64,000 nucleotides of DNA from Candidatus Rifleibacteriota bacterium (GTDB taxonomy: Bacteria; Muiribacteriota; Ozemobacteria; Ozemobacterales; Ozemobacteraceae). The DNA lies in the NCBI GenBank assembly GCA_018818125.1, contig JAHISQ010000137.1, positions 1 through 64,000 of the forward strand, in the 5' to 3' direction. A program made the position numbers and the translations under genes. Positions 8,732 to 50,223 of the stretch are shown here, piece by piece (position 1 is the stretch's first letter; each line of letters opens with the position of its first letter). The notes under the pieces were generated by a model, which saw only the letters and a program-made list of their open reading frames with translations, was not told the DNA's origin and ran no database searches.

Positions 8732-8794
8732 ATGCTGGCCGACAAGTATATTGCCAGAGTGCAGCTCCCAGCATTGGCAGACCTGGGAAAATAA
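8732..8794 (+). CDS. Possible 20-codon upstream ORF before the transporter gene
   Basis: An ATG at 8732, preceded by a strong purine-rich RBS (GGAAGGA at 8718-8724), opens a 20-residue frame that ends at TAA 8792-8794. The transporter frame has no ATG nearby; its first usable start after this stop is TTG 8802, 7 nt beyond. The short frame may let ribosomes reinitiate on the transporter, or it may be the displaced true start of the transporter after an indel. The peptide resembles nothing I know. Confidence 0.35.
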   Translation: MLADKYIARVQLPALADLGK

Positions 8795-8801
8795 CAATCT
8801 C

Positions 8802-11075
8802 TTGAAAATACTCAGCATTAAAGGGAAAGGGCCGGCATTCTTTTTCGCAGAAGCCTTGCGGGTCATCTTTCTGCTGAGCCTTTTACTGTATTCAACTTCG
8901 GCACACACCGCTGAAGAGATAACTCTTCGGGTCTGGGTGATGGGTGGAGAAGCTGATTCACTGCCACAAATCAGCAAAAAATTCGAGCAGGAAAACCCGG
9001 GCATAAAAATTAGGATTCAGGCGCTTTCATGGGGCGGCTCTTACGAAAAGCTGGTAACAGCATTTCTTGGTGGTGCCCCACCAGATGTATGCCAGCTGGG
9101 CACAACCATGATGAATGACTTTCACGCCATGGGCGCTCTTGAGAGCCTGCAATCACTTTTTGACGAACACAAACTGGCCAGCGACGATTTTTTCAGCGAT
9201 TCACTCAAAACCTGTGTTTTTGGAAAAGAGCATTTTGGGATTCCATGGTATGTAGACACTCGCGTTGTCTTTTATCGTCAGGAGTATCTCGACAAATTTG
9301 GCTGGAAAACTTTTCCGCAAACATGGAAGGACTTCTTCAAGCTTGGCGAACAGGTAACTGCCGACAAGCGAGCAAACGGTAGATCAACCGATTACTTTTC
9401 CAGTCTGCAGGGATTTACCTTCGAAATGTTTTATTGGCAGGCCGGCGGAAATTTCACGCCATTGCGAGCCGATCATCCCACCTTTGACGAGACGACAATG
9501 GCCGAAGCCATCAGCTTTGATCGCAACATGCGTCAGGCCGGTTTTAATGGCAAACCAAATGATTCTGGAATAGATTACATTTCCGAATTTGATCAGGGCA
9601 TTTACGAAGTGGCCATATCAGGTCCCTGGATGGCCTCAGACCTGCAGAAAAACCAGCATCGCCTGAAGAATGCCTGGGGTATGGCACCACTACCAGCCAA
9701 CAAAACCAGAACGTCTTTTATCGGCGGTTCTAACCTTGTTCAATTCAAAGACTCGCGCAACAAGGAAGCCGGCAGAAAACTCATTCTTTTTCTAAGCAGA
9801 CCTGATGTTCAGGCCGAATGGTATCGAATTTCGAGTGACATACCGGCCAACCGACATGCCATGGAAACCCCGGACCTGCTCAACGATCCAGTCATGAAGG
9901 TTTTTCGAGAGCAGCTCTCCGACACTCACCTGCCACCACCAGAGAAGGAGTGGACTATCTTCTGGGATCGCTTTTATCGGCAATACGATGAGTTCATGGA
10001 AAGCGACGATGACGTAGAGCCCTTCGTCAAGAAGATGAATGCATTAATGGCTGAAATAATAAGAGAACGAGATGCCGCAGGCATGCCTGAGACTGGAGCG
10101 TTCTACTGGGTGGCACTAACACTGTTTCCACTGTTGCTCGCGTTTATCTACGTTACCAGAGGCTGGCAACACCAGAAGCACATTTTGCAGCGAGTTCTCT
10201 TTCGAACGCCGGTAAAAAGCCTGGCATGTTTTCTACTGCCAGCGCTGATCATATTGCTGGTCTTTCGTATGCTGCCACTATGCGTGGCTTTTGCCGCGAG
10301 TTTTACCGATCTTGGCGCGACCAGCATTACCGACCCGACGCGGGCACTGTTCACCGGCAATCAGAATTATCTACGTCTCTATCAGGATCAGGTTTTCTGG
10401 AAAAGCTTAAAAAACACTCTTGTTTACCTGCTGATAGGAGTTCCGGCAAATCTAATTATTGCGCTGGGGTTGGCTCTCGCCGTAAATCGCTTCAGAGGCT
10501 GGAAACGACACTTACTGGCAATGGGCCTGTTTCTGCCCTCGGTTGTGACTACAGTGGCTTCGGCTGTCACCTGGCGCTGGCTTTACTGTCAGCAGAGTCC
10601 CCTCAACATTGCGGTCAACTGGCTTGGCCTCGGGCCAGTCAACTGGCTCAACGATCCTGACCTGGCACTACCTTCGCTGATATTTTTCTCGATCTGGCGC
10701 AGTTATGGCCTGAGCATGATAATAATTCTGGCCGGACTGGAACTGGTCAACCCCGAACTTTATGAGGCAATCCGCATCGACGGTGGCAACAGATGGCACG
10801 AATTCAGACATGCTACCCTGCCGGGTCTGCGCCGCACCCTTTTTGCTCTGATAATCGGAGTAACCATTGCCAACATTCAATTTTTTATCGAACCATACGT
10901 ATTAACCGGTGGCGGGCCAAAAGACGCGACCATGTCAGTGCTGCTGTTCTCTTATAACCGTGCATTTGGCTCATTTCAGCTGGGTTATGCCTCGTCGGTC
11001 ATAACAGTTTTGTTTGTATTCTTTGTCATCTTCAATATCTGGCAGAAAAGCATTCGCCAGAAACTCAATCAATAG
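8802..11075 (+). CDS. Fused sugar-type solute-binding protein and MalF-type ABC permease
   Basis: This product of about 757 residues joins two proteins that are normally separate. After a signal sequence (VIFLLSLLLYSTSAHTAEE) comes a family 1 extracellular binding domain of about 400 residues (LRVWVMGGEADSLPQ at its start, FIGGSNLVQFKDS near the hinge). A membrane helix (FYWVALTLFPLLLAFIYV) leads into a MalF-like permease with about six helices and an EAA loop (EAIRIDGGNRWHEFRHATLP) that docks the ATPase. Binding domain and channel are thus tethered. The frame is open from TTG 8751, but TTG 8802 gives a more normal signal-peptide length; no ATG fits. The MalG-like gene follows by 9 bp. No ATPase gene is present, so a shared MsmX-like ATPase elsewhere is likely. 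Confidence 0.85.
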   Translation: MKILSIKGKGPAFFFAEALRVIFLLSLLLYSTSAHTAEEITLRVWVMGGEADSLPQISKKFEQENPGIKIRIQALSWGGSYEKLVTAFLGGAPPDVCQLGTTMMNDFHAMGALESLQSLFDEHKLASDDFFSDSLKTCVFGKEHFGIPWYVDTRVVFYRQEYLDKFGWKTFPQTWKDFFKLGEQVTADKRANGRSTDYFSSLQGFTFEMFYWQAGGNFTPLRADHPTFDETTMAEAISFDRNMRQAGFNGKPNDSGIDYISEFDQGIYEVAISGPWMASDLQKNQHRLKNAWGMAPLPANKTRTSFIGGSNLVQFKDSRNKEAGRKLILFLSRPDVQAEWYRISSDIPANRHAMETPDLLNDPVMKVFREQLSDTHLPPPEKEWTIFWDRFYRQYDEFMESDDDVEPFVKKMNALMAEIIRERDAAGMPETGAFYWVALTLFPLLLAFIYVTRGWQHQKHILQRVLFRTPVKSLACFLLPALIILLVFRMLPLCVAFAASFTDLGATSITDPTRALFTGNQNYLRLYQDQVFWKSLKNTLVYLLIGVPANLIIALGLALAVNRFRGWKRHLLAMGLFLPSVVTTVASAVTWRWLYCQQSPLNIAVNWLGLGPVNWLNDPDLALPSLIFFSIWRSYGLSMIIILAGLELVNPELYEAIRIDGGNRWHEFRHATLPGLRRTLFALIIGVTIANIQFFIEPYVLTGGGPKDATMSVLLFSYNRAFGSFQLGYASSVITVLFVFFVIFNIWQKSIRQKLNQ

Positions 11076-11084
11076 GTAGAAAAC

Positions 11085-11921
11085 ATGAGCAATCTAACAA
11101 AAAACAGGCTGTTTAAAGAAACTCTGTTCTTTACCTTTCTCGTCTTTTCGCTGGCATTAACCATGTTGCCGTTTATATTCATGTCGGCAGAAGCCTTTGC
11201 ACCAGCAACCACCGGCGAAAACAGTCTATGGCGATATATGCCGCAGCAATGGTCATTGCAGTCGTTCAGGCAGCTTTTTGAGATGGGTGATATTCCGCGA
11301 TTTGCCATAAACAGCATGATACATGCTTTTGGCTATACCTTTTTATCTCTTGTTATCAACGCGCTTGCCGCTTTTGCTTTTGCCAGAATGGTATTTCCGG
11401 GGCGCGACCGGCTCTTTCTGATGCTGATTTTGACCATGATGATTCCAAGCCAGGTCATAATGATACCGGTTTTTATTATTGTAAAAACACTCGGTCTGCT
11501 CAATTCTTACGCAGGCCTTATTGTACCAGGATGCGCACATGCTTTTGGTATATTTGCGATCAGACAGTTCATGCTCGATCTTCCTGACGAGGTATTTGAT
11601 GCAGCCAGAACCGAAGGTTGCACCGACTTCGATCTGTTCATGCACATCGCACTGCCACTGTGTCGGCCGATTCTGGCAAGTCTGGCAGTTACCAGCTTCA
11701 TTTACACCTGGGATCAGTTTCTTTACCCGCTGGTAATCATGCAGGACGAGCCAATGTTTACACTCCCGGTTGCGCTGGTCTCATTGACGTCACAGCACTT
11801 CGGGCGCTGGGGCATGCTGCTGGCAGGCGGCATAGTCACAGCCATTCCCTCGCTTATAGTCTTCATGCTCGCTCAACGCGCCTACGTCGCCGGAGTCACC
11901 GGCGGCAGCGCCAAGAGTTAA
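11085..11921 (+). CDS. MalG-type carbohydrate ABC transporter permease
   Basis: The 278-residue membrane protein has six predicted helices and the MalG-family EAA loop (DAARTEGCTDFDLFMHIALP, about residues 167-186), where the cytosolic ATPase binds. It would pair with the permease half of the upstream fusion to form the channel. It starts 9 bp after the upstream stop, with AATAGGTAG as a modest RBS, so the genes form an operon. The sugar transported is not evident. In the EAA loop the usual Gly-Ala pair is Gly-Cys, a mild deviation. Confidence 0.9.
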   Translation: MSNLTKNRLFKETLFFTFLVFSLALTMLPFIFMSAEAFAPATTGENSLWRYMPQQWSLQSFRQLFEMGDIPRFAINSMIHAFGYTFLSLVINALAAFAFARMVFPGRDRLFLMLILTMMIPSQVIMIPVFIIVKTLGLLNSYAGLIVPGCAHAFGIFAIRQFMLDLPDEVFDAARTEGCTDFDLFMHIALPLCRPILASLAVTSFIYTWDQFLYPLVIMQDEPMFTLPVALVSLTSQHFGRWGMLLAGGIVTAIPSLIVFMLAQRAYVAGVTGGSAKS

Positions 11922-12794: not shown

Positions 12795-12822
12795 AAAAAA
12801 CCGGGTCTTTGCTCAGACCCGG
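12795..12822 (-). terminator. Intrinsic terminator of the arginine deiminase gene
   Basis: On the minus strand an 8-bp stem (CCGGGTCT 12801-12808 with AGACCCGG 12815-12822, 6-nt loop) is followed by six Ts (12795-12800). It lies 33 nt past the stop of the deiminase gene. Confidence 0.8.
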
Positions 12823-12854
12823 CTTTCAATAGACTTTTCAGACAGTTAACAGTC

Positions 12855-14333
12855 TTATCTGGGCTTGACGAAATATTTATTCGGGTGCCTGAAGACGTTA
12901 GTGCCACAATGCAGCTGACCCTGCAGGTTGTGATATGGAATGGAATCAATAAAGTTGGCTTTGAGACCTATCATGCTGGCTGAGCGGGCGATGTTACGGC
13001 GCATGCTTTCGACCTGGGGATCAGGAACAATCAGCTGGTTATTCAGAATCAGCTGATTTACACTGCCCGGGAAATACGCAATGTGCTTGTCGCTTCGCAT
13101 TTTGCGATACATGGCCGGGAACGACAGAACCGAATGGGCTTTGCCGGTTTCTTTGCGCACTTCAGAAATTTTGGCACAGGCCTTTTTAACATTAGAATCG
13201 ATAACATTGGCAAGAGTCAGATTCAGCTTGATGAATTCTTCAATCTCAGCCTTATCAACACTGTGCCCAGAGGCCAGATCAACGCCAGAACTCCGGTTTA
13301 CCAGCGGCATGCCGTCGTCGCCGGCGGAACGATCGAGATATTCAAGAACAGCTTGTGAGAACTTATGCTCTTCAGGAACTCCAGCGTTTCTACCACCACT
13401 GAGTTTATGTTTAGCACGAATTGCTTCGGCTTCCTGCAGGTAGTTTTTGATTTTGATTGATACATCACGATAATCACTATGCGGAATAGCGTTGAGCTCT
13501 TCAAGTGAGGCGTCTTTAATCAGACGCAAAGCCAGCCTGGGATTGGATTTTATCAGAGTATAGCCCCGAGCTGCTTTAGCGTTGGGACAAACCGAAATAT
13601 ACTCATCGACATGACCAACGTGCAACCACGAGGTTTCAAGCACAGCCATACGGCCAGCGTAGCCATGTTTTTCGAGATATTCGCGCAACTGCGGTGTCGA
13701 AGTGTCGCCGATCAAAAGCACATTATCAGGTGTTACCTCAATGTTTCCGCCATAATCGCCACCTGAACGCGCGGTTGATGGGTTTGTCAGCACATAGCAG
13801 TTCCAGAAGTTGGCCAGCTCGTTGGTTAAATAGGTGTTGCCGCGACCACGATTTGAATCAAAAACAACCAGCTGCGGTTTTTTTTCGGATTTAAGCTTAA
13901 CTACACCGACTTCGCCCCAATCCTGCATCCACATGTCATTAGAAACATCGGTGCTGCTGAATTCTACGTATTTTTTCAGAAGTTCAGCACTGACTTTTTT
14001 GCGAATCCCGGCAAAATCAGACGATTTAGCCGAGGCAGTCGGTATTACATGCACTTTAAAGAAGCAGTCTTTGGGAACCCAGCCTTTTTCCTGCATATTA
14101 GCGACAATATTGATCAATGAAACCACGAAGTTTTCGTTGCCCTGCTCGGGGGCATAAGCCACCAGCACCTTGACCGGGACATTGTTTGCGCCAAGAAATC
14201 TTATGGTTTCAATATCTTCGGGCGATGCAATCGTTTTGACTTTGGCATCTGCCGATGACAACGTGGCAATAAACACAACCAGCAGCAAGCAGACCCAGAA
14301 AGATCTGCACAGATTTTTACCGTTATTCTTCAC
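12855..14333 (-). CDS. Secreted protein-arginine deiminase (PAD_C family)
   Basis: Peptidylarginine deiminases convert arginine side chains to citrulline and ammonia. The 492-residue product has a signal peptide (about 1-30) and carries the catalytic layout of vertebrate/cyanobacterial PADs: NDMWMQD (D133), VVFDSNRGRG (157-165), GGNIEVTP (195-202), WLHVGHVDEY (H241, D243) and QLHCGTNVFR near the end (C476). These align with Asp350, His471, Asp473 and Cys645 of human PAD4. The N-terminal PAD_N and PAD_M domains of animal enzymes are absent; about 100 residues of other sequence take their place. It is a different family from Porphyromonas PPAD. It lies 82 bp downstream of tnaA on the same strand and ends at a strong terminator, so the two may be cotranscribed. 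Peptide versus free-arginine specificity is unproven. Confidence 0.85.
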   Translation of the reverse strand: MKNNGKNLCRSFWVCLLLVVFIATLSSADAKVKTIASPEDIETIRFLGANNVPVKVLVAYAPEQGNENFVVSLINIVANMQEKGWVPKDCFFKVHVIPTASAKSSDFAGIRKKVSAELLKKYVEFSSTDVSNDMWMQDWGEVGVVKLKSEKKPQLVVFDSNRGRGNTYLTNELANFWNCYVLTNPSTARSGGDYGGNIEVTPDNVLLIGDTSTPQLREYLEKHGYAGRMAVLETSWLHVGHVDEYISVCPNAKAARGYTLIKSNPRLALRLIKDASLEELNAIPHSDYRDVSIKIKNYLQEAEAIRAKHKLSGGRNAGVPEEHKFSQAVLEYLDRSAGDDGMPLVNRSSGVDLASGHSVDKAEIEEFIKLNLTLANVIDSNVKKACAKISEVRKETGKAHSVLSFPAMYRKMRSDKHIAYFPGSVNQLILNNQLIVPDPQVESMRRNIARSASMIGLKANFIDSIPYHNLQGQLHCGTNVFRHPNKYFVKPR

Positions 14334-14414
14334 TCAAAAACTCCTTATTTTACATCTGCATTATTCTAACATTTTATCAAATTCCTGCCGGTTAAAGCGT
14401 CGAAAATGATTTGT

Positions 14415-15788
14415 CTATTTCACCGGAGCGAAGCGGGCAGAAAAGTGACGCAGGAATGGCGGTTCCCAGGTGATTTTCAGGCCGGTAGCCTTTTTGCGTT
14501 CTGCATAGGTTTCAATGATCGCTTCGACTGCATAATCGAAATGGCTTTGAGTGTACACCCGCCTCGGGAATGCCAGACGCACCAGTTCCATCTCCGAAGG
14601 AATCTCTTTTCCGGTCTTTTTGTCTTTTTTGCCAAACATTACCGAGCCGATCTCGACGCTGCGGATACCGCCCTTGCGATATAGTTCACAGACAAGAACC
14701 TGCCCTGGATACTGCTCTCCCGGAATATGCGGATATACCGACTTTGCATCTATATACACAGCGTGTCCGCCGGTTGGCCGGATAATGCCTATGCCGGCGG
14801 CAAGCAGACGCTCGCCCATGTATTCGGCAGTGCGCACGCGATAGCATAGGTAGTCTTCGTCGAGTGCTTCCATCAGGCCTACAGCCAGAGCATCGAGATC
14901 ACGCCCAGAAAGACCGCCGTAACTCGGGAAACCTTCGGTGAGAATCAGCAGATTTCGGCAATTTGCCGCAAGACTATCATCGTTCATAGCCAGAAATCCA
15001 CCCATGTTTACCATACCGTCTTTTTTGGCGCTCATGGTGCAACCGTCGGCGTAAGAAAACATTTCCTGAGCAATTTCAAGCACCGTCTTTTTCTCGTAGC
15101 CCTTTTCGCGAATCTTGATAAAATAAGAGTTTTCGGCGAATCTGCAGGCATCGATGAAGAACGGAACTTTGTACTTTTTATAGATCTTTGCCGCATTTCT
15201 GATGTTTTCCATCGAAACTGGCTGGCCGCCGCCGGAATTGTTGGTTACTGTGAGCATGCCGAGCGGAACTGTCTTGTGATTTTTCTTGAGAAAAGCCTCA
15301 AGCTTTACGAGATCGATGTTGCCCTTGAACGGGTGAATAAGAGCCGGTTGCTTGCCTTCGGCAATAACCATGTCGACCGCTTCGGCTTCTTTATATTCAA
15401 CATTGGCGCGGGTGGTATCAAAATGCGTGTTGTTCGGCACGCTGTCACCTTTTTTAACTGCAGCCGAAAACAATATGCGCTCGGCAGCCCGGCCTTGATG
15501 TGTCGGAATAATATGCTTAAAACCGGTGATACTTTTTACAACACTTTCAAAATGGTAAAAACTCTTGCTGCCGGCATAAGATTCGTCGCCAGTTATCATC
15601 GCAGCCCACTGTTTATCGCTCATCGCGCCAGTTCCGCTGTCGGTAAGAAAATCGAGCAGAATGTCATCAGCCTTTATTAAAAACGGGTTGTAGTGGGCCT
15701 CTTTGAGAAGCTTGATGCGCTGTTTCTCGGTAGTCTGGCGAATAGACTCAACCATCTTGATTTTGAAAGGTTCGATTAATGTCTTCAT
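14415..15788 (-). CDS. tnaA: Tryptophanase (tryptophan indole-lyase)
   Basis: Tryptophanase is a PLP enzyme that splits tryptophan into indole, pyruvate and ammonia. The 457-residue product has the fold-type I beta-eliminating lyase features HQGRAAERILF, NSGGGQPVSMENI and the PLP-lysine segment MSAKKDGMVNMGGFLAM. Two sites separate it from tyrosine phenol-lyase: VEIGSVMFGKK, where phenol-lyases have an Arg (MERG), and LRHFSARF, with the tryptophanase His. Both favour tryptophanase. The frame is open 28 codons further upstream, but ATG 15788 has AGAGGTG just before it and matches the family N-terminus. No TnaC-like leader peptide is seen. The secreted deiminase follows by 82 bp. Confidence 0.92.
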   Translation of the reverse strand: MKTLIEPFKIKMVESIRQTTEKQRIKLLKEAHYNPFLIKADDILLDFLTDSGTGAMSDKQWAAMITGDESYAGSKSFYHFESVVKSITGFKHIIPTHQGRAAERILFSAAVKKGDSVPNNTHFDTTRANVEYKEAEAVDMVIAEGKQPALIHPFKGNIDLVKLEAFLKKNHKTVPLGMLTVTNNSGGGQPVSMENIRNAAKIYKKYKVPFFIDACRFAENSYFIKIREKGYEKKTVLEIAQEMFSYADGCTMSAKKDGMVNMGGFLAMNDDSLAANCRNLLILTEGFPSYGGLSGRDLDALAVGLMEALDEDYLCYRVRTAEYMGERLLAAGIGIIRPTGGHAVYIDAKSVYPHIPGEQYPGQVLVCELYRKGGIRSVEIGSVMFGKKDKKTGKEIPSEMELVRLAFPRRVYTQSHFDYAVEAIIETYAERKKATGLKITWEPPFLRHFSARFAPVK

Positions 15789-15939
15789 ACACACCTCTAT
15801 TTTTATATCTAGACAAAACACTGCACAACAACAGTCATCAGAATACCATGATGAATTAGTCAGGTAAAGCAAAAGCCCTTGCTATATTTGGCAAAATCCG
15901 TTGTTAAATGCGCTCAGTCTGTATAACTGAGGCTGTTCA

Positions 15940-18000
15940 TCAACTGGCGGCGGTAGTGCAGTTTCTGCCGGCCTGTTTGGAGCGATAAAGAGCTTCATCG
16001 GCAATCTTTATAAGACTTTCTTTGTCTTTGGCATGTTCAGGGAAGGTGGCGCAACCAAGGCTTATAGTAACACTGATGCTGTGTTCCTCATGCTGCATCC
16101 TGGTCTGCTCAATAGCAAGGCGAATGCGTTCAGCCAGTTGAAAAGCGCCTTCAAGTTCAGTGTTCGGCATAATCACAACAAATTCTTCGCCGCCGTAGCG
16201 TGCTGGCAGATCTATACCCTCACGAACAGTGGCTGCGGTGACATCTGAAACTTTTTTCAAAACCTTATCACCAAGCTGGTGCCCCCAGGTGTCGTTAAAC
16301 TTCTTAAAATGGTCGATATCGAAAAGAATCAGCGAAACTGGCTCCTGCCAGCGCTTCGCTTTGGTGATTGCAGCATCTAGTCTAAGTTGAAAATACCTGT
16401 GAATGTAAAGACCGGTAAGCCCATCAGTGATGGCTAACTGATGCAGTTGAGCTTTCTGTATGGCGATGGCAATCTGAATAGAAATATCAGAGAGCAGATC
16501 AACGTCTTCATTGGTAAAGCCGCCCGAGCGATCAACCAGATAGACTACGCCAAGAATGCCTTTGTCGCCAGACAGTGGCAGAGCGAGCAGATTGCCTGCA
16601 GTTTTAACCCACTCTGGCTCGGTGGTCAGATCGGCAACAGGCTCTTTTGCAAGGTCGGCACACATTATGGTGCGCGGCTTCAGCGCAATTTTTCCGGCAA
16701 AACCGCAACCGGCAGCAATTTGAACGCGCGCCGAAGAAGCATTCGCATCGGGAGCGGCATCAACAGCGGTCAACTCCATACGCTCTGTAGATGGATCGAA
16801 CATGAACATGGCCGCCACTCTGACCTGAATCGTCTGCCGCAGAATCTCGAGAATACCTCGGATCAGATCACTTTCTTTCTGGTAGATTATGGCCTGATTG
16901 ATCAAATTGCGCAGAGAAAGATCAAATACCTGACGATCCAGCTTTATATTGGCATTTTTAAGTTTTTCTATTGTGCTTTTGATCTCGCAGCGCATATCGT
17001 CCATGGTCTTACCAAGAAAAGCGACTTCATCATGTGATTCGACGCCAATCTTCTGACTGAAATCGCCGGCGCCAATTGCCAGAGCCGAAGTCACCAGCGA
17101 ATTTATCGGCCCGGTAAGCGTGCGCGAAAACAACAGTGCCAGCACAATTGCGAAAAGAACTGCCAGCAGACCAATCTGCACAAGATTCTTACTCAGCACG
17201 ACGATCATTTCGGTCACAAATGCCTTTTCAACTGCAGTTCCGATAAAGAAACTACCGTTCTGCGCCTCGACCGGCATTACCTGAAACAGATATTTTCGCC
17301 CGAAAACCGACTTTTCAAACGTCGATTGCGCCGACTCGGCCGCGCTGATATCCAACAAAACCCGCTCGCCAGCTTCCCTGAAAGTTGAGCCAAACAATAG
17401 ACAGCGCTCATCGACAAAGCCAAAAAAAATCATCTCGGTTCCGATGATTTTCTTGATTTCTTCGGCAAATTGATGAGTCGAAAACAACGACAGCACAATA
17501 GCTCCAATCGGGCCGGAAGCGCTTTCGTGATACATCGGAGCAGCCGAACAGATGCGCAGATGCCCATCGACAACTTCTCTAAAGGAAAGAATCTTGCCCT
17601 GCAAAACCTCTTCTACTACCTGCTTTGGGCAAAGCGGGTATTTCGTGCATGGCTCGCCCGCCAACAGATTGGCATTTTTGTCGTAAATCTCGGTAACAGC
17701 GTCATAAGAATTGAGTTTGAGGTGACGGTTTGTCAGATTCACCTTGTCGATAAGTTCAATCAGATCGCTGGTCTTTACCGCCTCTCTGATGTCTTTGCTC
17801 TGCGCCAGAATCTGCACCTTCAGCGCCATTTCGTCGAGAGTGTTGAGGAAGAAATTGTGAGCCACCGCCAGACTTTCGCCGACCCGCTTCTGCAACATGC
17901 CGGTCAGATGATGGGAAACCAGTCTGGTGGTCGTAAAAATGGCGAGAAACATCGGGATCACAACCACAATCAAAAACAGAAAAGCGAGTTTGCGTTTCAT
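15940..18000 (-). CDS. Membrane sensor with HAMP, GAF and GGDEF domains (diguanylate cyclase)
   Basis: The 686-residue protein would make c-di-GMP in response to an extracytoplasmic signal. Order: TM1 (about 6-28), a periplasmic cache-like sensor (about 30-265), TM2 (about 270-295), HAMP (about 296-350), coiled coil, GAF (about 365-520), then GGDEF with an intact active site (YGGEEF, GGEEF at 603-607) and a D-x-D-x-F metal site (FDIDHFKKFNDTWGHQ). The inhibitory I-site is not canonical: upstream of GGEEF the sequence reads REGID rather than RxxD, so product inhibition may be weak. Its ATG overlaps the stop of the upstream solute-binding lipoprotein as ATGA (17997-18000), so the two are made together and the lipoprotein may deliver the ligand. 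Confidence 0.9.
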   Translation of the reverse strand: MKRKLAFLFLIVVVIPMFLAIFTTTRLVSHHLTGMLQKRVGESLAVAHNFFLNTLDEMALKVQILAQSKDIREAVKTSDLIELIDKVNLTNRHLKLNSYDAVTEIYDKNANLLAGEPCTKYPLCPKQVVEEVLQGKILSFREVVDGHLRICSAAPMYHESASGPIGAIVLSLFSTHQFAEEIKKIIGTEMIFFGFVDERCLLFGSTFREAGERVLLDISAAESAQSTFEKSVFGRKYLFQVMPVEAQNGSFFIGTAVEKAFVTEMIVVLSKNLVQIGLLAVLFAIVLALLFSRTLTGPINSLVTSALAIGAGDFSQKIGVESHDEVAFLGKTMDDMRCEIKSTIEKLKNANIKLDRQVFDLSLRNLINQAIIYQKESDLIRGILEILRQTIQVRVAAMFMFDPSTERMELTAVDAAPDANASSARVQIAAGCGFAGKIALKPRTIMCADLAKEPVADLTTEPEWVKTAGNLLALPLSGDKGILGVVYLVDRSGGFTNEDVDLLSDISIQIAIAIQKAQLHQLAITDGLTGLYIHRYFQLRLDAAITKAKRWQEPVSLILFDIDHFKKFNDTWGHQLGDKVLKKVSDVTAATVREGIDLPARYGGEEFVVIMPNTELEGAFQLAERIRLAIEQTRMQHEEHSISVTISLGCATFPEHAKDKESLIKIADEALYRSKQAGRNCTTAAS

Positions 18001-19205
18001 TGGCGAAGTTCCTCCAGTTGCTCAATGCGACTTTGCGCTTCGTTGAGCACTTCAGACAGGCCACGAGCCGGATTGTTGAACACTTCGTTGAGAATCCAGC
18101 TGGTTTCCTGCCAGACTAATTTCATGCTTTCGCCGGGTGGCAAAGGAATACCATAACGAGCACTGTCAAGAAATCCCTGCTGATGCAACGTAAGTTCCTG
18201 ATTACCAGAAACCGGCTGATAACACGGCAACAACCCGATTCGACGTGCCGCCAGACTCTGGATTTCCTGAGAACCCAGCATTTCAACGACCATCAGCGCC
18301 TCTCTGGGGTGCGCAGTGTGTGCGTTGACAGCAAAGCCTTTGATACCGATGAATGGTCGGGCCGGCTGACTGGCCGAAATATCAGGAATTCTGGTGACGG
18401 CAAAATTAACCGGACTACGCTCTATTTCTGGCATTGACCATGGTCCAGAAATAATCATGCCAATCTGACCTCTTCCGAAAAGATTGATCATGGCCGGGTA
18501 ATTTGCCTTGGCCGGTAGCAGATTCCAACGCACCTGCAGATCTCTGGCAAACTTTAGAGAGTTCTCATGTTCGGCAGTCTGCAGATCAATGCGGCCATCT
18601 GCAGCAAAAATACTGGCTCCGAAGCCAAAAAACAGCGGAGCATGGGAGTAAAAATTCTTGTTTTCGTAAATAAAGGGGTACAGGCAATTCGGACCGAGCG
18701 CCGCGCCGATCGAGATCAACTCTTCAAAGTTGCGTGGTGGCGTGGCAACCAGGTCGGTATTGTAAAAAAGAGCCAGCGCCTCAAAACTCCAGGGAACCGC
18801 ATAAAGTTTGTTCTCAACAGTTACTCCGTCGAGCATGGCCGGCATGATGTGCGAAAAGCTTGCTGTAATTGGCAAAAGAAGGTTCTGCCGCGACAGTTCG
18901 CCTATCCAGTCATTCACCAGCAATACAATATCTGGCTCGCGAGTGCGTTGTGCGTGCCCGAGGAATGTCGGTTTGAGGTCATTCAGACGAGTAACTTTCC
19001 AGTGTAGAACTATTCCCGGAATCGCCTTCTCTATTCTGCCACCGATCTCACGAAAAAATTCAATTTCACGGGCGTTAGCATCAAGCCAGATCTGGATCGG
19101 CTGCCTGGAGTCTATTGGCTGATCACCCGACTGACAACCGGTAAAGAGACATACCGCCAGAAACGCTGAAACCAGAGCGGCAAACACTGTTTTGTTGTTC
19201 TTCAT
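17997..19205 (-). CDS. Solute-binding lipoprotein (family 1)
   Basis: The product of about 402 residues has a lipoprotein-type signal ending FTGC near residue 25 and the two-lobed family 1 extracellular binding-protein fold. Signs are IQIWLDANAREIEFFREIGG at the first strand, DIVLLVNDW, YAVPWSFEALALFYN and the hinge RPFIGIKGFAVNAH. Such proteins normally serve ABC importers, but no permease is beside it. It is instead coupled by an ATGA overlap to a membrane diguanylate cyclase, which suggests a ligand-presenting role for that sensor. Either of two adjacent ATGs (19211, 19205) could start it; I prefer the one giving the shorter n-region. The ligand is probably a sugar or oligosaccharide, by family only. 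Confidence 0.85.
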   Translation of the reverse strand: MKNNKTVFAALVSAFLAVCLFTGCQSGDQPIDSRQPIQIWLDANAREIEFFREIGGRIEKAIPGIVLHWKVTRLNDLKPTFLGHAQRTREPDIVLLVNDWIGELSRQNLLLPITASFSHIMPAMLDGVTVENKLYAVPWSFEALALFYNTDLVATPPRNFEELISIGAALGPNCLYPFIYENKNFYSHAPLFFGFGASIFAADGRIDLQTAEHENSLKFARDLQVRWNLLPAKANYPAMINLFGRGQIGMIISGPWSMPEIERSPVNFAVTRIPDISASQPARPFIGIKGFAVNAHTAHPREALMVVEMLGSQEIQSLAARRIGLLPCYQPVSGNQELTLHQQGFLDSARYGIPLPPGESMKLVWQETSWILNEVFNNPARGLSEVLNEAQSRIEQLEELRQ

Positions 19206-19316
19206 GAGCATTCTCGATCATTATTTTACAACAAAATACCATATCTTTATAACCGATGATGATTTTATCTGGTCTGACACCCATCAAACCGTAAAATATT
19301 GGTCAGAAATCAAAAT

Positions 19317-29802: not shown

Positions 29803-32800
29803 TCAAATATAGCCTTTGGTCTTTATAATTGCGGTAAAAACGTTCATCTGTTTTTCGAGTTGCCGCAGAGATTCTGGAAGCTGGTCAAACATCTCGTCTA
29901 TGATCAGAGTTTCAACCGCCAGGGCCGCCTCTCTGAGCGCAGTCGCCGAAACATTTGCGGCAGAACCCTTGATATTATGTACCAGACGCCGCCCCTGCGA
30001 ATAATCATGATCGTCAATCGCAGCTTTCAGCTGCATCAGGTGCGTCGGTGCGTCAGTAAAAAATGCTGTAACTATTCGCTGCAGTAAGGCTTTGTCTTCC
30101 ATCAGTCTTTCCATCAGCTCGTCTTCGTCAAATATTGCTTTCATATCCATCGCTGGAACTGACTCGCTCTGAACCACCGCATCGTGAGGCTTGAGAGTCT
30201 TCATTAGCCAGCTTCCCAGCTTTTCGAGCAATTCAGCAGGCTGCACCGGCTTTGCGAGATAATCATCCATGCCCGCCGCAATACAACGCTCACGATCACC
30301 CTGCATTGCATTAGCAGTCATTGCAATAATTGGCACCGCTGAATTGAAAACCTTGCATTTACCACTGCGAATGTTGGCAGTCGCTTCAAATCCATCCATA
30401 ACCGGCATCTGACAATCCATCAGCACCAGGCTGTAATTGTGCTCCGACAGCAGTCTTATCGCTTCCTGACCATTCGTAGCCAGGTCGGCCCGATATCCAA
30501 GCTTCTTAAGAGTAATCAAGGCGACTTCCTGGTTGGTGAGGTTGTCTTCAACCAGAAGAATGCGAACATTGCGCCGATGCGCCTCCAATACCCTGTGCCT
30601 GGTGATAAGTTCGTTGCTGATCTCCTTACCACTGTCTTCGGACATTCCTACCACCATTGCCAGACAGTCATGCAACTGGGACTGACGAAGCGGCTTGGTC
30701 AGGTAACCGACAAAACCAGCTTTCTGTATCCACTCAGCATCACCGCGCTGTCCAAGCGAGGTCAACAGCACAAGTCTTGTTGCCGACAACGTAGGACTGC
30801 TCTTGATTCGCACGCATAGATCACGGCCATCCATGTTGGGCATCAGCATGTCGAGAAGAGCAACGTAATAAGGATCGCCATCAGCAACGGCACTTTCGAG
30901 CATTTGCAGAGCAACATCTCCGCCCTCAGCTTCAGAATAGCGGCAACCCCAGGACTTAAGCAAGCTCGCCACAAGTAATCGATTAACGGCATGATCATCG
31001 ACAATCAAAATTCTTATACCGGTTATATCAGCCATTGGCAATAATTCAGGCACTTTGTCGTCAGCCTGAAGCGAGAACCGGGCTGTAAACCAGAACTCTG
31101 AACCCTTGCCCGGCTCACTGTTCACACCGATGCTTCCCTGCATCAACTCAGTCAGCTGTTTGCAAATAGCCAGCCCCAGCCCGGTGCCACCGTATTTTCT
31201 GGTGGTCGAACCGTCTACCTGCGTAAATGTGGCAAACAGCCTTGGCAGATGCTCTGGAGCCACGCCAATGCCGGTATCCTTGATAGAGAAATGCAAAGTA
31301 ACCTCAGATTCGGACTCTTCGTCAACGCTGACAGTGAGAACAACCTCACCACTATCAGTGAATTTAATGGCATTGCCGACCAGATTCAAAATAATCTGGC
31401 GCAGACGGCCTGGATCACCAACCAGCAACGACGGAGTTTCAGGATCGACCATACAGACAAGCTCAAGTCGTTTCTCATGAGCTCTTATTGCGATCATTTC
31501 TATTGCATTTTCTAAGGTCGTGCGCAAATCAAAGCGGATTTGCTCAAGACTTAGCTTGCCAGCCTCAATCTTGGAGAAATCAAGAATATCATTTATCAGT
31601 GATAGCAGATTCTCACAGCTGTTTTTAACAACGTCAGCATATTGTCGTTGCTCGGTGGTCAGCTCTGTTTCAATTAATAGACTGCTCATACCAATAATTC
31701 CGTTCATCGGAGTGCGAATCTCATGACTCATATTGGCCAGGAATTCGCTCTTGGAGGCATTTGCCAACTCAGCCTGACGCGCCAGATCGGCAGCTTGATT
31801 GCTGATATTTCTCAGCTCTTCGTTGGTGATTTCCAGCTTTGCAATGGCCTTTTTATAGGCTAATTCAGCCTCTCTACGAGCATCAGTATCGATAATTACG
31901 CCTTCCAGACACTGCAACTGCCCCTGCTCATCATAAATTCCCTGCCCTTTGTCATAAACCCAGAGATACTCTGAGTCAGCACACAAAATTCGGTATTCAA
32001 TTTCGTAGCATTTATTTGTTTTTAGCCCTTTAGCGACAGCCTGCTCAACCGCCTCAGTGTCCTCATGATGGATTATGCTGGCAAAACTACGCACCTGATT
32101 ATTCAAAAAATCGCTGGCAGGATAGCCCGTCATTCTCTGAACTTCATCACTGATAAAAGCCATGGTCCAATGTTTGTCATTGGCACAACGATAGGTGATG
32201 CCAGGAACATTGGCAATCAGAGTTTTAAGCTTTTTCTGGTTCTCAAGCAAAATCGTTTTGATCCGGTACTGCTCAGTCACATCATGAAAAACAAGAACAG
32301 CGCCGCGAACGCTGCCGCCTTCGTCACGAATAGGTGCCGCGCTGTCGGCAATCTGTCGCTCAGTGCCATCTTTTGCACACAAAGTAGTGTCGTTGCCAAG
32401 CTCAATTGTTTTACCGGTATACAAAACCTCGGCTATCGGGCAGGCGATGATCTGGCGGCTACCATACTGATAAATCCTGAATATTTCACTGACTCTGACT
32501 CCAATCGCGTCAGCCAGAGACCAGCCCGTAAGTTTTTCAGCCACAGGATTCATTCTTGTAATAAGACCATCTTCGTCGGCAGCAATGACTGCGTCACCAA
32601 TCGAATTGAGAGTTATCGACAAATCTTTCTCTCGCTCAGCCAGCTCTTTTGATCGAATGCCGACCAGGATTTCGAGGTCATGCTGACGATTTTTAAGAAA
32701 TCCGATGAACAGACTCAACAGAAATGTTACCAGCAGACACACAAGCCCTGATGCGATGGCATTCGCCCAGGTTCGACGTGCCGTCAAGAACTGTAGGCCC

Positions 32801-35040
32801 GGATGAATATTAACTACAATGCTTCTACCAAAAATAAAAAGCGGATAAGTTGTGCTGAATGCATGTTGAGGATAATAACCAGCTTCAAGATTCGACGATG
32901 CTGCAGCCGGATAAAGTGCCTGCAATGTTTTGTGGGCGGGCGCCAGATCTAACATCTCGACAACCACATCATCACTGTGTATCGAACCACCGAGTACCAT
33001 TCGTTCCAGTATCAGCTGCTGTCTCAAAATACAGGCAGCAAAACCGATTGGCTGCTCTGAATTTTGAGCAAAAACCGGCTGCAACACCAGGGTTACCGGG
33101 AAAGCAGACTTCTGCTTATTCAAAAACGCTTTTGAAACGCGCGAGAAGGACAATTTTTGCTTAAGTACAGAATCTGGCAATTTGCCATCCTCGCCACTGA
33201 ACAGAGATGGCTCGAGTCCCATCAACTCACGATTAATATCAAGAGGCGAAACGTAAACAAATGGAATATAAAAGTCTTTATCTTGTAATGGCGCAACATG
33301 GCCTTCTGCATCATATTTAAAAATTGAAAAATCGGCAAATCCCTGTGTAGCTAGAAAGTCTGTGAGTTCCTGCACCTGCGATTTTGCCACCAATGGCATC
33401 CAGGCCCATGCCTGCGCTGCAGTAGAGCGAGTGATAGGACTAACATAGTTTTGAAACTCAGCAAATGATTTATAGGTGCCAGTATTGGAAGAAAAACGCG
33501 CCAGACTTTCGAGATCTCTTCGAATCTGGCGAAAAGTCTCGCCAATCAGCTGATTTTTTGCGTCCGCTATCCAGCGAAATTCCTGATAATTTTTTTGCGT
33601 TTCGACCTGCTGAACAAATAACACAACAATTAAACTGATCAGTATTCCATAAAAACTGGCAAACACAGTTTCGACGTGACGAGACCACCAGCCCTGATCT
33701 TTGCCCTGAGAAGCATTTTCACGCCACTGCACGAACAGGAAACCCATCATGGTAAGCAGCACCAGCAAAAGAACTATACAAATAATGGTAATCCTGGCTG
33801 TAGCAACCAGCAAGCGCCAGTCATTTGCTATCGCGTCTATGCCTACCACCATGGCAACCTCTCCGCTTTTGCCATCTATTACCGGAGCAAATGCCGAAAC
33901 AAAACTGCCGTATTCATCGACAAAAGGACCAACGACGACTGGGCGGCTGGTTGCAAACACCTCATAAACCCCCGGATCAGGCTGCTCATAGACCGTGCCC
34001 GGTGGTGATGCCTGCGGGTCGTTCACATCATAATTTTCAGGACCGAAAATCAGGTTATCATCGCGCAAAGCCATTGTATAAATGCCTCTGAGACCTTTTT
34101 TTTGCATCCCAAAAGAGGTTAATTGTTCGCGCAGACGTATAAAAGCCTCGTTGTTCCGGTCTTCCAGTGAAAAATCGAGGAGACGGATTCTATCAGGATT
34201 AATGGTCTGAGCGATACTTACGCCCAGGCGCAGAATATCCCGGCGGAATGATTCATCAGCCAGGTTGCCGTTCCATTCTGTTGCGAACCATCCTGCTACA
34301 AATAAAACCGGCAACAAAAAAGGGAACATAAGTCGCCGAAAGATGATATCGCGGGTTGAGCGCTGACTCAACCCGTGCCCGAACCACCAGATACCGCACA
34401 GACATGCGGCAGCTGCCAATGCACGTATAATTTGAACCGGGAAACCAGCAAAGTCTTGCCAGAGCTCTTCGTTTAAAGAGGAAGCCGGCCAGCAAGGGCT
34501 TTCTGTGCCAATCAACCCGGAAAAAACTGCATAGACGGCCATCGAAACTGCCGCAAGTCGCAAACCTCGACGTGCTACCTGCTGACAATTATGTGACTCC
34601 TGCCAGAAAGCCAAGGCTGTCAAAACAGCGGCGAAAAATCCAATGCAGATGCGAACCGCCGTTTCTGGACAATAAGCTCCGCTAATTACCGCTGCAGTGG
34701 TGCCGCCAAATAAGAGAACTCGTATCAGCAGCCCCTTGTAGCTTAGAAAAAGCGGAAAAAAATAACGCAGAGCAAACTCAAGCAGCATGGCAAACGAAAA
34801 AGCCAACGAGCTCAACAACGCAGGATAACAAGTGATATTGCCGACCAGATAGTTATCGACCATTTTATGCCACTCGTTAAAGCCCTGAAATACAGCAAAC
34901 AGCGCCAGCCATTTCCAGCGAAAACGGCTGCCGTCTTCCATCCATGAAATTTTAATGGCAACAACTGCCAGAAAAACAAAGGAAAGGCCAAACCATAGCA
35001 TTACGTAATCAAGCTGGCTTAGCCACCAATTAAGTTGCAT
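29803..35040 (-). CDS. Hybrid histidine kinase with two extracytoplasmic sensors, two receivers and HPt
   Basis: A complete phosphorelay in one chain. Numbering from a TTG five codons upstream: eight or so helices (about 15-260), a first periplasmic sensor (about 262-412), TM (415-443), TM (466-482), CHASE domain (about 490-755, with YVSPLDINRELMGLEPSLF), TM (765-786) and two PAS domains (about 810-930 and 940-1060). HisKA follows (MSHEIRTPMNG, H1111), then an HATPase with GGTGLGLAIC, receiver 1 (D1402), receiver 2 (D1547) and HPt (HNIKGSA, H1693). All phospho-acceptors are intact. The ATG at 35040 is preferred because it has AGG upstream and follows a good promoter. No output regulator is adjacent, so the final target is unknown. 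Confidence 0.93.
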   Translation of the reverse strand: MQLNWWLSQLDYVMLWFGLSFVFLAVVAIKISWMEDGSRFRWKWLALFAVFQGFNEWHKMVDNYLVGNITCYPALLSSLAFSFAMLLEFALRYFFPLFLSYKGLLIRVLLFGGTTAAVISGAYCPETAVRICIGFFAAVLTALAFWQESHNCQQVARRGLRLAAVSMAVYAVFSGLIGTESPCWPASSLNEELWQDFAGFPVQIIRALAAAACLCGIWWFGHGLSQRSTRDIIFRRLMFPFLLPVLFVAGWFATEWNGNLADESFRRDILRLGVSIAQTINPDRIRLLDFSLEDRNNEAFIRLREQLTSFGMQKKGLRGIYTMALRDDNLIFGPENYDVNDPQASPPGTVYEQPDPGVYEVFATSRPVVVGPFVDEYGSFVSAFAPVIDGKSGEVAMVVGIDAIANDWRLLVATARITIICIVLLLVLLTMMGFLFVQWRENASQGKDQGWWSRHVETVFASFYGILISLIVVLFVQQVETQKNYQEFRWIADAKNQLIGETFRQIRRDLESLARFSSNTGTYKSFAEFQNYVSPITRSTAAQAWAWMPLVAKSQVQELTDFLATQGFADFSIFKYDAEGHVAPLQDKDFYIPFVYVSPLDINRELMGLEPSLFSGEDGKLPDSVLKQKLSFSRVSKAFLNKQKSAFPVTLVLQPVFAQNSEQPIGFAACILRQQLILERMVLGGSIHSDDVVVEMLDLAPAHKTLQALYPAAASSNLEAGYYPQHAFSTTYPLFIFGRSIVVNIHPGLQFLTARRTWANAIASGLVCLLVTFLLSLFIGFLKNRQHDLEILVGIRSKELAEREKDLSITLNSIGDAVIAADEDGLITRMNPVAEKLTGWSLADAIGVRVSEIFRIYQYGSRQIIACPIAEVLYTGKTIELGNDTTLCAKDGTERQIADSAAPIRDEGGSVRGAVLVFHDVTEQYRIKTILLENQKKLKTLIANVPGITYRCANDKHWTMAFISDEVQRMTGYPASDFLNNQVRSFASIIHHEDTEAVEQAVAKGLKTNKCYEIEYRILCADSEYLWVYDKGQGIYDEQGQLQCLEGVIIDTDARREAELAYKKAIAKLEITNEELRNISNQAADLARQAELANASKSEFLANMSHEIRTPMNGIIGMSSLLIETELTTEQRQYADVVKNSCENLLSLINDILDFSKIEAGKLSLEQIRFDLRTTLENAIEMIAIRAHEKRLELVCMVDPETPSLLVGDPGRLRQIILNLVGNAIKFTDSGEVVLTVSVDEESESEVTLHFSIKDTGIGVAPEHLPRLFATFTQVDGSTTRKYGGTGLGLAICKQLTELMQGSIGVNSEPGKGSEFWFTARFSLQADDKVPELLPMADITGIRILIVDDHAVNRLLVASLLKSWGCRYSEAEGGDVALQMLESAVADGDPYYVALLDMLMPNMDGRDLCVRIKSSPTLSATRLVLLTSLGQRGDAEWIQKAGFVGYLTKPLRQSQLHDCLAMVVGMSEDSGKEISNELITRHRVLEAHRRNVRILLVEDNLTNQEVALITLKKLGYRADLATNGQEAIRLLSEHNYSLVLMDCQMPVMDGFEATANIRSGKCKVFNSAVPIIAMTANAMQGDRERCIAAGMDDYLAKPVQPAELLEKLGSWLMKTLKPHDAVVQSESVPAMDMKAIFDEDELMERLMEDKALLQRIVTAFFTDAPTHLMQLKAAIDDHDYSQGRRLVHNIKGSAANVSATALREAALAVETLIIDEMFDQLPESLRQLEKQMNVFTAIIKTKGYI

Positions 35041-35117
35041 AGAGCGACGCCTCAAAAACCTCGATTTGCTGTTGCGGGATGCTATATCTGTAGGAAATTA
35101 CAACAGCATTCGTTGAC

Positions 35118-47262: not shown

Positions 47263-50223
47263 TTAAAACTCAATATCGGCAACCTTGAAGGTCTCTTTGT
47301 TATCAGTCAAACGCAGCGTGACTGAGCGACGTTTTTCGCTCTCGCGCCCGAAGTTGGTGAACAAATCGACCTGCAAAGTGACAGCACCAGCGATTTTCTG
47401 CGAACGACTGCCATAGAAATTGGTTTTAACTTCGTACATGCCATGGCGGGCTTTTTTGATCATGTATTCTTCGGGACCGTAACCCTGCGTAAAGTCGCGC
47501 GAAACCAGGCCGCCGATCTGCGTGCGCGGGTTGCTGTAATACGCCTGTTCGCCGCTGGGCTCGATTACCCACAGATCCATGTCGGTCTGATCAGCATCCC
47601 AGGTCATGACAATGCGAAGGTCTACATCAATAGGCTTTACCAGACGCTCATCAACCTTGAAATCCTTGATTCCACTGCGCTTACCCTGAACAATCAGATT
47701 GTTCATTTCTTCGAGCGCAATTACTTCAATTTCCGGGAAACGGCCATCCCACTTCTTGAGCACCACTTCATAGAGCAATTCGACTGCGCGCTGATACTCA
47801 CCGCTGCGACCCAGCACCAGTGCGAGATCACGATAAGACTGTGGCTCTTCACCGCGCATTTCGAGAACTTCGGAAAATATTGCAGCACTGATTTCGAGTT
47901 CATCTATCTGAGACAAACGATGTGCCAGAATTCTCATCAATGCAGGATTTTCCAGTTCGAGCTCGGCAATATTCGACAGCACCTGCAGCGCTATATCGTT
48001 CATTTTGAGATCGAGAAATACATCAGCGCAGTCAAGATAGAAAGCCGGCGACATCATATATTCCGGTTTTTCTTCGAGATAGGCTGAATAAGGCTCTTTT
48101 GCTGCCTTGATTTTTTTAACATATAACGTATCTGGCTGCCATGGCTTGATAACAACGCCAGGATTAACCGGTCTGGAGTCCGACTCCTTATTCTCAGACA
48201 TCGACTTGCTCGATACACCCCCGACAACAGATGGTTGTGGTTCAGCGCTACCAGCACCGCCAGATTCCTGTCGGCGGCTCTCTAAAGCCGGCATGACTTC
48301 ATCAGACATTTCTTCGCGCGAAGAAAAGCTTTCGCTATCCATTGCAGGCGCGGGAGCAACACTTCCTGGTGCGTGCATTGGCTGCACCGAACGAACCGGG
48401 GGCAGCAGCGCACGGCCCTTTTTGTCGTTTTTCTGTAATTCGACCTTGGTAAAATCGGTGTTCCACCACTTCAGGCGCTCATTCCATATATTTACAACGG
48501 TTTCAAGTTTGCTGTCGCGGGTGGTCGCAATTTCAGCAGCTTCTTTTTCGAGCACAGCAAAATACTGTTGACGCCATTCAGGTTTTGAAGCCGGCGGCAC
48601 TACCCGATGTTCGAGATACTGCCCGATCGTTTCGAGCACCAGAAGAGAGGTGAATTCGTTGACGATGCTGTGTTTTTTGCTCAGAGCAACGATTTCGCTA
48701 CGATTCTTGTCTTTTTGCGCTAACAATTCGTCAATTTTGCGGGCAGCCCAGTATTTGCGCAAAAACTCGCCAGTAACCGCAGCAGATTTTTTTATGGTGA
48801 ATTTGCGATCAATTCTCTCGCTGTTGTGACTGCCAAACTGCAACAGCAGATCGGTCTCGTCACGATCAAGGACACCGGCAAGCATGAAGTGCGGATGCAC
48901 TGGCACAACACCGGCTGGGTAAATCTCGGCAATCCCGGCGCCAGCCTGCCTGTTGACCAGCCCGAAAAACTCGGCACCAACCAATTTGACAGCACGTTCG
49001 AGCTCGGTGTTCTTAAGATTGATCATCGCTCCACCGCTACTGCGGCAGATCATCTGCAAAAACCCATAATCAGCACCATCAGCTCCGGTTACAGCATAGA
49101 GCGGCGCATTCAACTCAGGCAGGACAGCCTTGCCAAAGGTATTGAGGCCATCTGAAAGCAGCAGGTAAAAATCTGGCTTTTTCAAGTTATCGGCTAAGCC
49201 GGTAAAAGAAGTGCCGCCATCAAACTTTACGTTCTCAATGTGCTTAATAAGAGCTGCCGCATTTCCACGTTCGACAGAAAAGGAGGTGGCAACGCCAGGC
49301 TTGTTTCTAAATTCTACAAATTCAACCTCAAACTTGTCAGCAACGCGGTCAGAAGCGAGAAGAGCAGTAATAAACTTCTTTTCGAGTTCGAGATCACGCT
49401 TTGCTGCCGAACCAGAGGCATCATAAATAACAGCGATGCGCGAAGCCGGTTTTGTCTCTGATTTATTGCGATTGGCAATCACACCCTGTACACTGAAATA
49501 ATACTGCCCGTCTGCTGATTTTTCGACAACCACAGATCCAGACTTCGGCATGGGCACATCGACCACCAGCTCTGACTTGATTTCCTGTTTATTTACTGTA
49601 ATTTCACTGAACCAGCCAGATTGCATACGGTTAAACTCTGTCGGCTGCAGTCCTTGAATCTGGATTTTCGGTGATTCATCTGCACTGAGAACTTCTACCC
49701 GGAGATTGAATCTGTCGGTGGCGCGGCTGAGCTGCAAAGGCACACGATAACGGGTACTGGCATCGTCGATCGCCAGCTCGGTCAGATAAGTAACCTGAAC
49801 CGTTCTGTTGCTGCGCGGGTTAAGCGGGTAAACTCTGGTCTTGAAATTGTTGCCCTTTACCTTCTCGACGAGTCCGGGGTCAACGCCTCGGCGCACTTCT
49901 GTCTCGAAAATTTCGCGGGCTTTCTGTTTTTCGACGGCGACCCCCTCAACCAGATCACCATTTACATCGAGAGCATAACCCGAAACGATTGCGCCCTCCG
50001 GCATTGGAAACTCAAGTTCGCCCTCGAGAACTCGAGAGTTTGGGTTGTAAAACTTCATGGTCATGGTTGTTTCGGCCAGATGACCGAAAATGCGCACCCG
50101 CATCTCAAGATCAGCGAGCTTGACCGGCTCTTCGCCAGCTTTTTTGACCACAATCTCAGGAATTTGTGCACATACAACCGACGCCAGAGCCATAAAAAAC
50201 ACGATCAACAGATATTTTCGCAT
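47263..50223 (-). CDS. Secreted VIT/VWA/DUF2135 protein
   Basis: The 986-residue protein has a signal peptide (1-19), a VIT (inter-alpha-trypsin-inhibitor-type) domain (about 20-165, with EGELEFPMPEGAIVSGYAL and RVYPLNPRSNRTVQVTYLTE) and a von Willebrand A domain (about 265-420). The VWA MIDAS is altered to DASGSA, fitting D-x-S-x-S. Further on are a Pro/Ser/Glu-rich linker (about 590-690), TPR-like helices (about 715-840) and a C-terminal DUF2135 beta-sandwich (about 880-986, VRIVMTWDADQTDMDLWVIEP). VIT-VWA proteins bind ligands at the cell surface or periplasm, often in adhesion or envelope maintenance. It is an exported scaffold by domain content; the ligand is unknown. Confidence 0.85.
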   Translation of the reverse strand: MRKYLLIVFFMALASVVCAQIPEIVVKKAGEEPVKLADLEMRVRIFGHLAETTMTMKFYNPNSRVLEGELEFPMPEGAIVSGYALDVNGDLVEGVAVEKQKAREIFETEVRRGVDPGLVEKVKGNNFKTRVYPLNPRSNRTVQVTYLTELAIDDASTRYRVPLQLSRATDRFNLRVEVLSADESPKIQIQGLQPTEFNRMQSGWFSEITVNKQEIKSELVVDVPMPKSGSVVVEKSADGQYYFSVQGVIANRNKSETKPASRIAVIYDASGSAAKRDLELEKKFITALLASDRVADKFEVEFVEFRNKPGVATSFSVERGNAAALIKHIENVKFDGGTSFTGLADNLKKPDFYLLLSDGLNTFGKAVLPELNAPLYAVTGADGADYGFLQMICRSSGGAMINLKNTELERAVKLVGAEFFGLVNRQAGAGIAEIYPAGVVPVHPHFMLAGVLDRDETDLLLQFGSHNSERIDRKFTIKKSAAVTGEFLRKYWAARKIDELLAQKDKNRSEIVALSKKHSIVNEFTSLLVLETIGQYLEHRVVPPASKPEWRQQYFAVLEKEAAEIATTRDSKLETVVNIWNERLKWWNTDFTKVELQKNDKKGRALLPPVRSVQPMHAPGSVAPAPAMDSESFSSREEMSDEVMPALESRRQESGGAGSAEPQPSVVGGVSSKSMSENKESDSRPVNPGVVIKPWQPDTLYVKKIKAAKEPYSAYLEEKPEYMMSPAFYLDCADVFLDLKMNDIALQVLSNIAELELENPALMRILAHRLSQIDELEISAAIFSEVLEMRGEEPQSYRDLALVLGRSGEYQRAVELLYEVVLKKWDGRFPEIEVIALEEMNNLIVQGKRSGIKDFKVDERLVKPIDVDLRIVMTWDADQTDMDLWVIEPSGEQAYYSNPRTQIGGLVSRDFTQGYGPEEYMIKKARHGMYEVKTNFYGSRSQKIAGAVTLQVDLFTNFGRESEKRRSVTLRLTDNKETFKVADIEF

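Follow-up and report, generated by a model that had tools for sequence, protein, structure and literature searches.

A 64,000-nucleotide stretch of DNA from Candidatus Rifleibacteriota (the window) encodes, on its minus strand, a protein of the peptidyl-arginine deiminase (PAD) family that consists of a predicted signal peptide and the catalytic domain PAD_C only, and that belongs to a separate one-domain branch of the family PF03068. We consider it quite probable that this protein is an exported peptidyl-arginine deiminase acting without a calcium switch, an activity that we infer.

Candidatus Riflebacteria are little-known sediment bacteria, and our literature search found no description of PADs in Riflebacteria. 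Two types of PAD are recognised, three-domain and two-domain; <1% of bacterial species have PADs, whose bacterial and fungal functions are described as unknown (PMC8826395, PMC9174705).

Gene, family and architecture

The open reading frame at 12855-14333 is genuine. The following features, all on the minus strand, belong to it or adjoin it:

12795..12823 (-): intrinsic terminator GCCGGGTCTGAGCAAAGACCCGGTTTTTT, directly 3′ of the PAD stop
12855..14333 (-): one-domain PAD gene, 492 codons open from a GTG start, stop included
12906..12908 (-): codon of the nucleophile C476, in HCGTN (PAD4 C645)
13602..13622 (-): HVGHVDE, residues 238-244, with catalytic H241 and D243 (PAD4 H471, D473)
13734..13751 (-): GGNIEV block, residues 195-200, with E199, a ligand of calcium site 1 (Ca1; PAD4 E411)
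13839..13868 (-): VVFDSNRGRG block, residues 156-165, in which D159, S160, R162 and R164 correspond to PAD4 D369, S370, R372 and R374
13920..13931 (-): W135-M-Q-D138, with the substrate Trp W135, the Ca1 residue Q137 and the catalytic Asp D138 (PAD4 W347, Q349, D350)
14244..14333 (-): signal peptide, residues 1-30, predicted cleavage ADA/KVK, without lipobox (sequence, hydropathy)
14341..14346 (-): ribosome-binding site AAGGAG, 7 nt 5′ of the GTG, by direct reading of the sequence
14415..15872 (-): gene of the tryptophanase / tyrosine phenol-lyase family, 81 bp upstream of the PAD gene

The terminator is a GC-rich hairpin followed by a U run (-22.7 kcal/mol, z -6.8), and none of 200 shuffles was equally stable. 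No structured RNA in the window passed the Rfam thresholds.

By family, fold and residues, the product is a PAD. Its membership of PF03068, proposed in the initial annotation, is borne out by a score of 87 bits (E=1.7e-24) against a curated cut-off of 25, and this was by far the best family, which disposes of agmatine deiminase as the sole best match. No NCBIfam model matched. Pfam scans of the window PAD did not bring up the free-arginine deiminase family PF02274, and Porphyromonas PAD (PPAD; PAD_porph, PF04371) gave no match at E<=0.1, in keeping with the distinction from PPAD that had been drawn earlier; among 39 one-domain members, three matched PAD_porph weakly (best E 0.063). Judged from its sequence, the protein is thus distinct from PPAD, agmatine deiminase and free-arginine deiminase. 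At the sequence level, the PDB yielded human PADs only, the best at 7e-20 when the window PAD alone was the query, and a profile of the 39 relatives matched PAD4 at E=1.8e-41 over the catalytic domain, from before WMQD through HCGTN. An AlphaFold model built on a 39-row alignment (mean pLDDT 90, pTM 0.89) retrieved human PAD entries throughout the top 50 of a Foldseek search, with E down to 1.9e-22 and a probability of 1.00 to PAD4. The predicted structure thus has the PAD catalytic fold, although it superposed on PAD4 loosely (TM 0.58, normalised to query length; rmsd 6-8 over ~485 columns); because of this, the active-site geometry is read below from the sequence.

Two further proposals of the initial annotation, a signal peptide and the lack of the PAD_N and PAD_M domains, agree with what we found. 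At the N-terminus, MKNNGKNLCRSFWVCLLLVVFIATLSSADA/KVK has the look of a Sec signal peptide, with a hydropathy peak of 3.23 over 12 residues, so that by eye and by hydropathy the protein is probably exported, and a hydrophobic stretch lies directly ahead of PAD_C in all but two of 37 one-domain rows. In a Pfam scan, PAD_M was found in none of the 39 one-domain members and in 6 of 10 control proteins (from a cyanobacterium, Vibrio, Paenibacillus, Myxococcaceae, Acidobacteria and Campylobacteraceae). The Streptomyces control had no PAD_M by Pfam despite having room for it. In the window PAD, neither PAD_N nor PAD_M was found and there is no room for either: between signal peptide and PAD_C lie only ~15 residues, whereas multi-domain PADs have ~100-200 residues ahead of it. 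PAD_M is therefore truly missing from the window PAD, beyond a mere failure of detection. The window also carries a TonB gene (105-998), which suggests that the cell has an outer membrane; a signal peptide alone would then place the PAD in the periplasm.

Catalytic, substrate-binding and calcium-binding residues

We take the roles of PAD4 residues used here, both the substrate contacts and the assignment of calcium sites, to be those seen in PAD4 structures. The catalytic positions had initially been given as D133, H241, D243 and C476. The last three stand, but D133 aligns to PAD4 D345, and the residue aligned to the catalytic D350 of PAD4 is D138, in WMQD. Every Rifleibacteriota-type row (33/33) and every Oligoflexia row (4/4) of the alignment has D138, H241, D243 and C476, and with D138 invariant across the branch the catalytic set D-H-D-C is complete. 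Likewise, the blocks VVFDSN, GGNIEV and HCGTNV (the last starting at residue 475) are indeed present, but as counterparts of the vertebrate blocks they are homologous rather than identical, since human PAD4 has VVFDSP and FGNLEV. The residues that bind the peptide in PAD4, W347, R372 and R374, have counterparts in W135, R162 and R164; among the 33 Rifleibacteriota-type rows R162 is invariant and R164 is found in 30. The homology of R162 and R164 to PAD4 suggests specificity for peptides rather than for free arginine.

For calcium sites 1 and 2 and the switch residue we rely on statements in PMC8826395. The Ca1 ligands Q137, E141 and E199 are invariant in 33/33 Rifleibacteriota-type rows. Site 2 (Ca2) is broken in the window PAD, where W139 stands for PAD4 E351 and G163 for N373, and the switch Asp (PAD4 D388, PAD2 D389) is replaced by N178, the 388 column being loosely aligned. 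Judging from these residues, the animal-type sequential calcium switch could not operate, since PAD_M, a complete site 2 and the switch Asp are all missing; without such a switch, the PAD would be expected to work as soon as export brings it to an environment that contains calcium. In the four Oligoflexia rows Arg and Lys replace the Gln and Glu of Ca1, which suggests that these one-domain PADs are calcium-independent forms.

Relatives and gene neighbourhood

After long branches had been taken out, a tree of 61 rows (37 with one domain, 24 with several, none fungal) placed a single branch with support 100/100 between the one-domain PADs and all two- and three-domain PADs, cyanobacterial and human ones included. 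A fuller tree gave the same split (100/98). The one-domain clade is made up of the window PAD and 36 others from Rifleibacteriota, allied bins and an Oligoflexia bin; in neither tree did the window PAD group with actinobacterial PADs. Human PAD4 stood next to cyanobacteria in both trees, matching its published placement, with weak support here. Together with the missing Ca2 and switch residues, the separating branch contradicts the initial assignment of the window PAD to the animal/cyanobacterial subtype. The tree is unrooted because the superfamily outgroups are too distant, and with no direction given by a root the one-domain state may be ancestral or a loss. Two rows within the Rifleibacteriota clade come from bins whose names, Erysipelotrichia and Methylomirabilis, look wrong, and some bins may contain foreign contigs.

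The nearest named relatives are in Candidatus Riflebacteria MAGs such as GWC2_50_8, HGW-Riflebacteria-1 and Ca. Rifleibacterium amylolyticum; examples of these one-domain PADs lie on MFYY01000216, PGYB01000002 and JAACJG010000005. These are orthologues of 63-70% identity, with identical architecture and nothing essential that differs. More distant one-domain relatives come from the Oligoflexia bin and from bins labelled Muiribacteriota, Wallbacteria or Cloacimonadota; our genome set assigns some of the latter to the same phylum. This Oligoflexia bin, nN3bin31, has seven PAD-like places in one genome, of which four were read (L076, L077, L079, L080). PADs are present in 26 of the 40 genomes of the phylum, several of which have more than one gene, so that roughly two in three of the genomes sampled from this one phylum carry the apparently exported one-domain type. 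Given this distribution and the PADs already known in Actinobacteria and Proteobacteria (PMC8826395), the window PAD is not an isolated case, although the initial annotation took the family to be reported mainly in animals, some fungi and cyanobacteria. The PADs that PMC8826395 mentions, unnamed, as a "bacterial outgroup" may include some of these Riflebacteria PADs. PAD is absent from all four genomes (G018, G021, G022, G023) of genus g11, in the same family as the window's genome; this genus is a natural contrast set for finding a trait linked to citrullination. The window's genome has a second PAD (contig C178:3692-5059, 455 aa, with WLQD), which belongs to a distinct paralogue group. The setting of this second gene is conserved in the genus and includes an acetate kinase-like gene, ABC transporter genes and a Cys-rich MYCYEAHRC protein.

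The window PAD differs from both recognised types. With the three-domain PADs of animals (PADI1-4) and cyanobacteria (Clade Ai; Cummings et al. 2021, PMC8826395) it shares PF03068, D-H-D-C, the counterparts of W347 and R372/R374, and the Ca1 residues; unlike them, it lacks PAD_N, PAD_M, Ca2 and the switch Asp, has a signal peptide and falls in a separate clade. According to PMC8826395, the known bacterial PADs, except those of the late cyanobacteria, have two domains, with a PAD_M that has diverged. Two-domain PADs, which occur in fungi as well as in Actinobacteria and other bacteria (PMC8826395), have the family and the catalytic residues in common with the window PAD, but they carry 100-200 residues (the divergent PAD_M) before PAD_C, as opposed to its ~15 after the signal peptide, and lie on a separate branch. 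Apparent signal peptides were also found in the Streptomyces PADs examined. Porphyromonas PPAD, described as phyletically distinct (PMC8826395), shares the wider fold and the concept of an exported bacterial enzyme that deiminates proteins, but is of a different family (PF04371).

No neighbour of the window-type PAD was conserved across ten related loci. The initial annotation had linked the PAD to the adjacent tryptophanase gene; this association appears incidental, and we rejected a conserved tryptophanase-PAD operon, as there was no tryptophanase near the ten related window-type PADs. The 81 bp gap between the two genes is free of hairpins, and nothing rules out their joint transcription in the window's genome. 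A link to the arginine-energy pathway was also rejected. The window's genome has a separate gene for free-arginine deiminase (ADI) and one for ornithine carbamoyltransferase (OTC), and carbamate kinase was not found in it (94.6% complete). Across the phylum, carbamate kinase was present in 31 of 40 genomes at E<=0.001 (30 above the curated cut-off), yet its presence does not track that of PAD: the four f3 genomes that bear PAD all lack carbamate kinase, which is common in genomes without PAD.

Proposed action and possible roles

We propose that the Sec signal peptide would carry the PAD across the inner membrane and that the mature protein would fold as a lone catalytic domain. In it, D138 and D243 would hold the guanidinium group, C476 would attack it and H241 would serve as acid/base, with peptidyl-citrulline and ammonia as products; R162 and R164 would grip the peptide backbone in a PAD4-like manner. 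The active site is probably ordered by a single calcium ion, which Q137, E141, E199 and two backbone carbonyls would hold at site 1. The target would most likely be an arginine of the cell's own exported proteins or of extracellular peptides and proteins.

What such a reaction is for could be explained in more than one way. A nutritional role, in which extracellular peptide arginine is deiminated and the citrulline, after proteolysis and uptake, is converted by OTC and carbamate kinase to yield ATP and ammonia, is possible but not indicated, and we think it somewhat unlikely. OTC and ADI in the window's genome and the wide occurrence of carbamate kinase in the phylum fit it; the failure to detect carbamate kinase in that same genome and its lack of correlation with PAD speak against it, as does the separate ADI, by which free arginine is already served. 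Alternatively, the PAD may mature one particular exported peptide or surface protein; the nearest precedent, as a bacterial PAD with a known target, is the Streptomyces PAD (probably of the two-domain kind) that converts a single Arg in the lasso peptide citrulassin (PMC9266682). That peptide is encoded elsewhere in the genome (PMC9266682), and the two divergent PAD paralogue groups per genome suggest different targets; still, no candidate substrate is encoded as a conserved neighbour of the window-type PAD, and we rate this role as unlikely.

The remaining explanations concern the protein itself. A PAD scaffold turned to the hydrolysis of free arginine, agmatine or another small guanidine would use the same chemistry as the rest of the superfamily, and the lack of PAD_M could accompany such a change of substrate; the weak PAD_porph matches also fit this reading. 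However, the peptide-holding residues R162, R164 and W135 are retained, PF03068 is far ahead of any other family, ADI is a separate gene, and export makes catabolism of small molecules less natural, so we judge this improbable. That the protein is a catalytically dead remnant or a binding protein fits the lack of a known activity, but with the four catalytic residues intact in every one-domain row examined it is very improbable.

If the exported, switch-free deiminase that we favour is active, it would be a minimal PAD with which to study catalysis apart from the calcium switch, a candidate for an early state of the PAD family, and it would mark a bacterial group in which to seek a native role of citrullination; a one-domain PAD may also serve as a small tool enzyme. 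More speculatively, Rifleibacteriota and their allies might hold a third PAD type, exported, switch-free and near the ancestral form, with exported proteins being regularly citrullinated, and the two- and three-domain PADs would then have arisen by gain of PAD_M and PAD_N; we regard this picture, taken as a whole, as doubtful.

Several other genes of the window are of separate interest. One ORF at 8751-11075 (+) fuses a solute-binding protein domain (residues 68-355) to an ABC permease domain (570-772), and is followed by a further, second-permease-like ORF (11085-11921). Adjoining the tryptophanase gene, a gene for a HAMP-GAF-GGDEF diguanylate cyclase (15940-18000) is overlapped at its start by 4 bases by a solute-binding protein gene (17997-19211, -), the two (15940-19211, -) forming an apparent ligand-sensing c-di-GMP pair. 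The window also encodes a 1750-aa hybrid sensor kinase with CHASE, PAS, HisKA and HATPase domains, two receiver domains and Hpt (29803-35055, -), and a 986-aa bacterial protein of the inter-alpha-trypsin type with VIT and DUF2135 domains (47263-50223, -).
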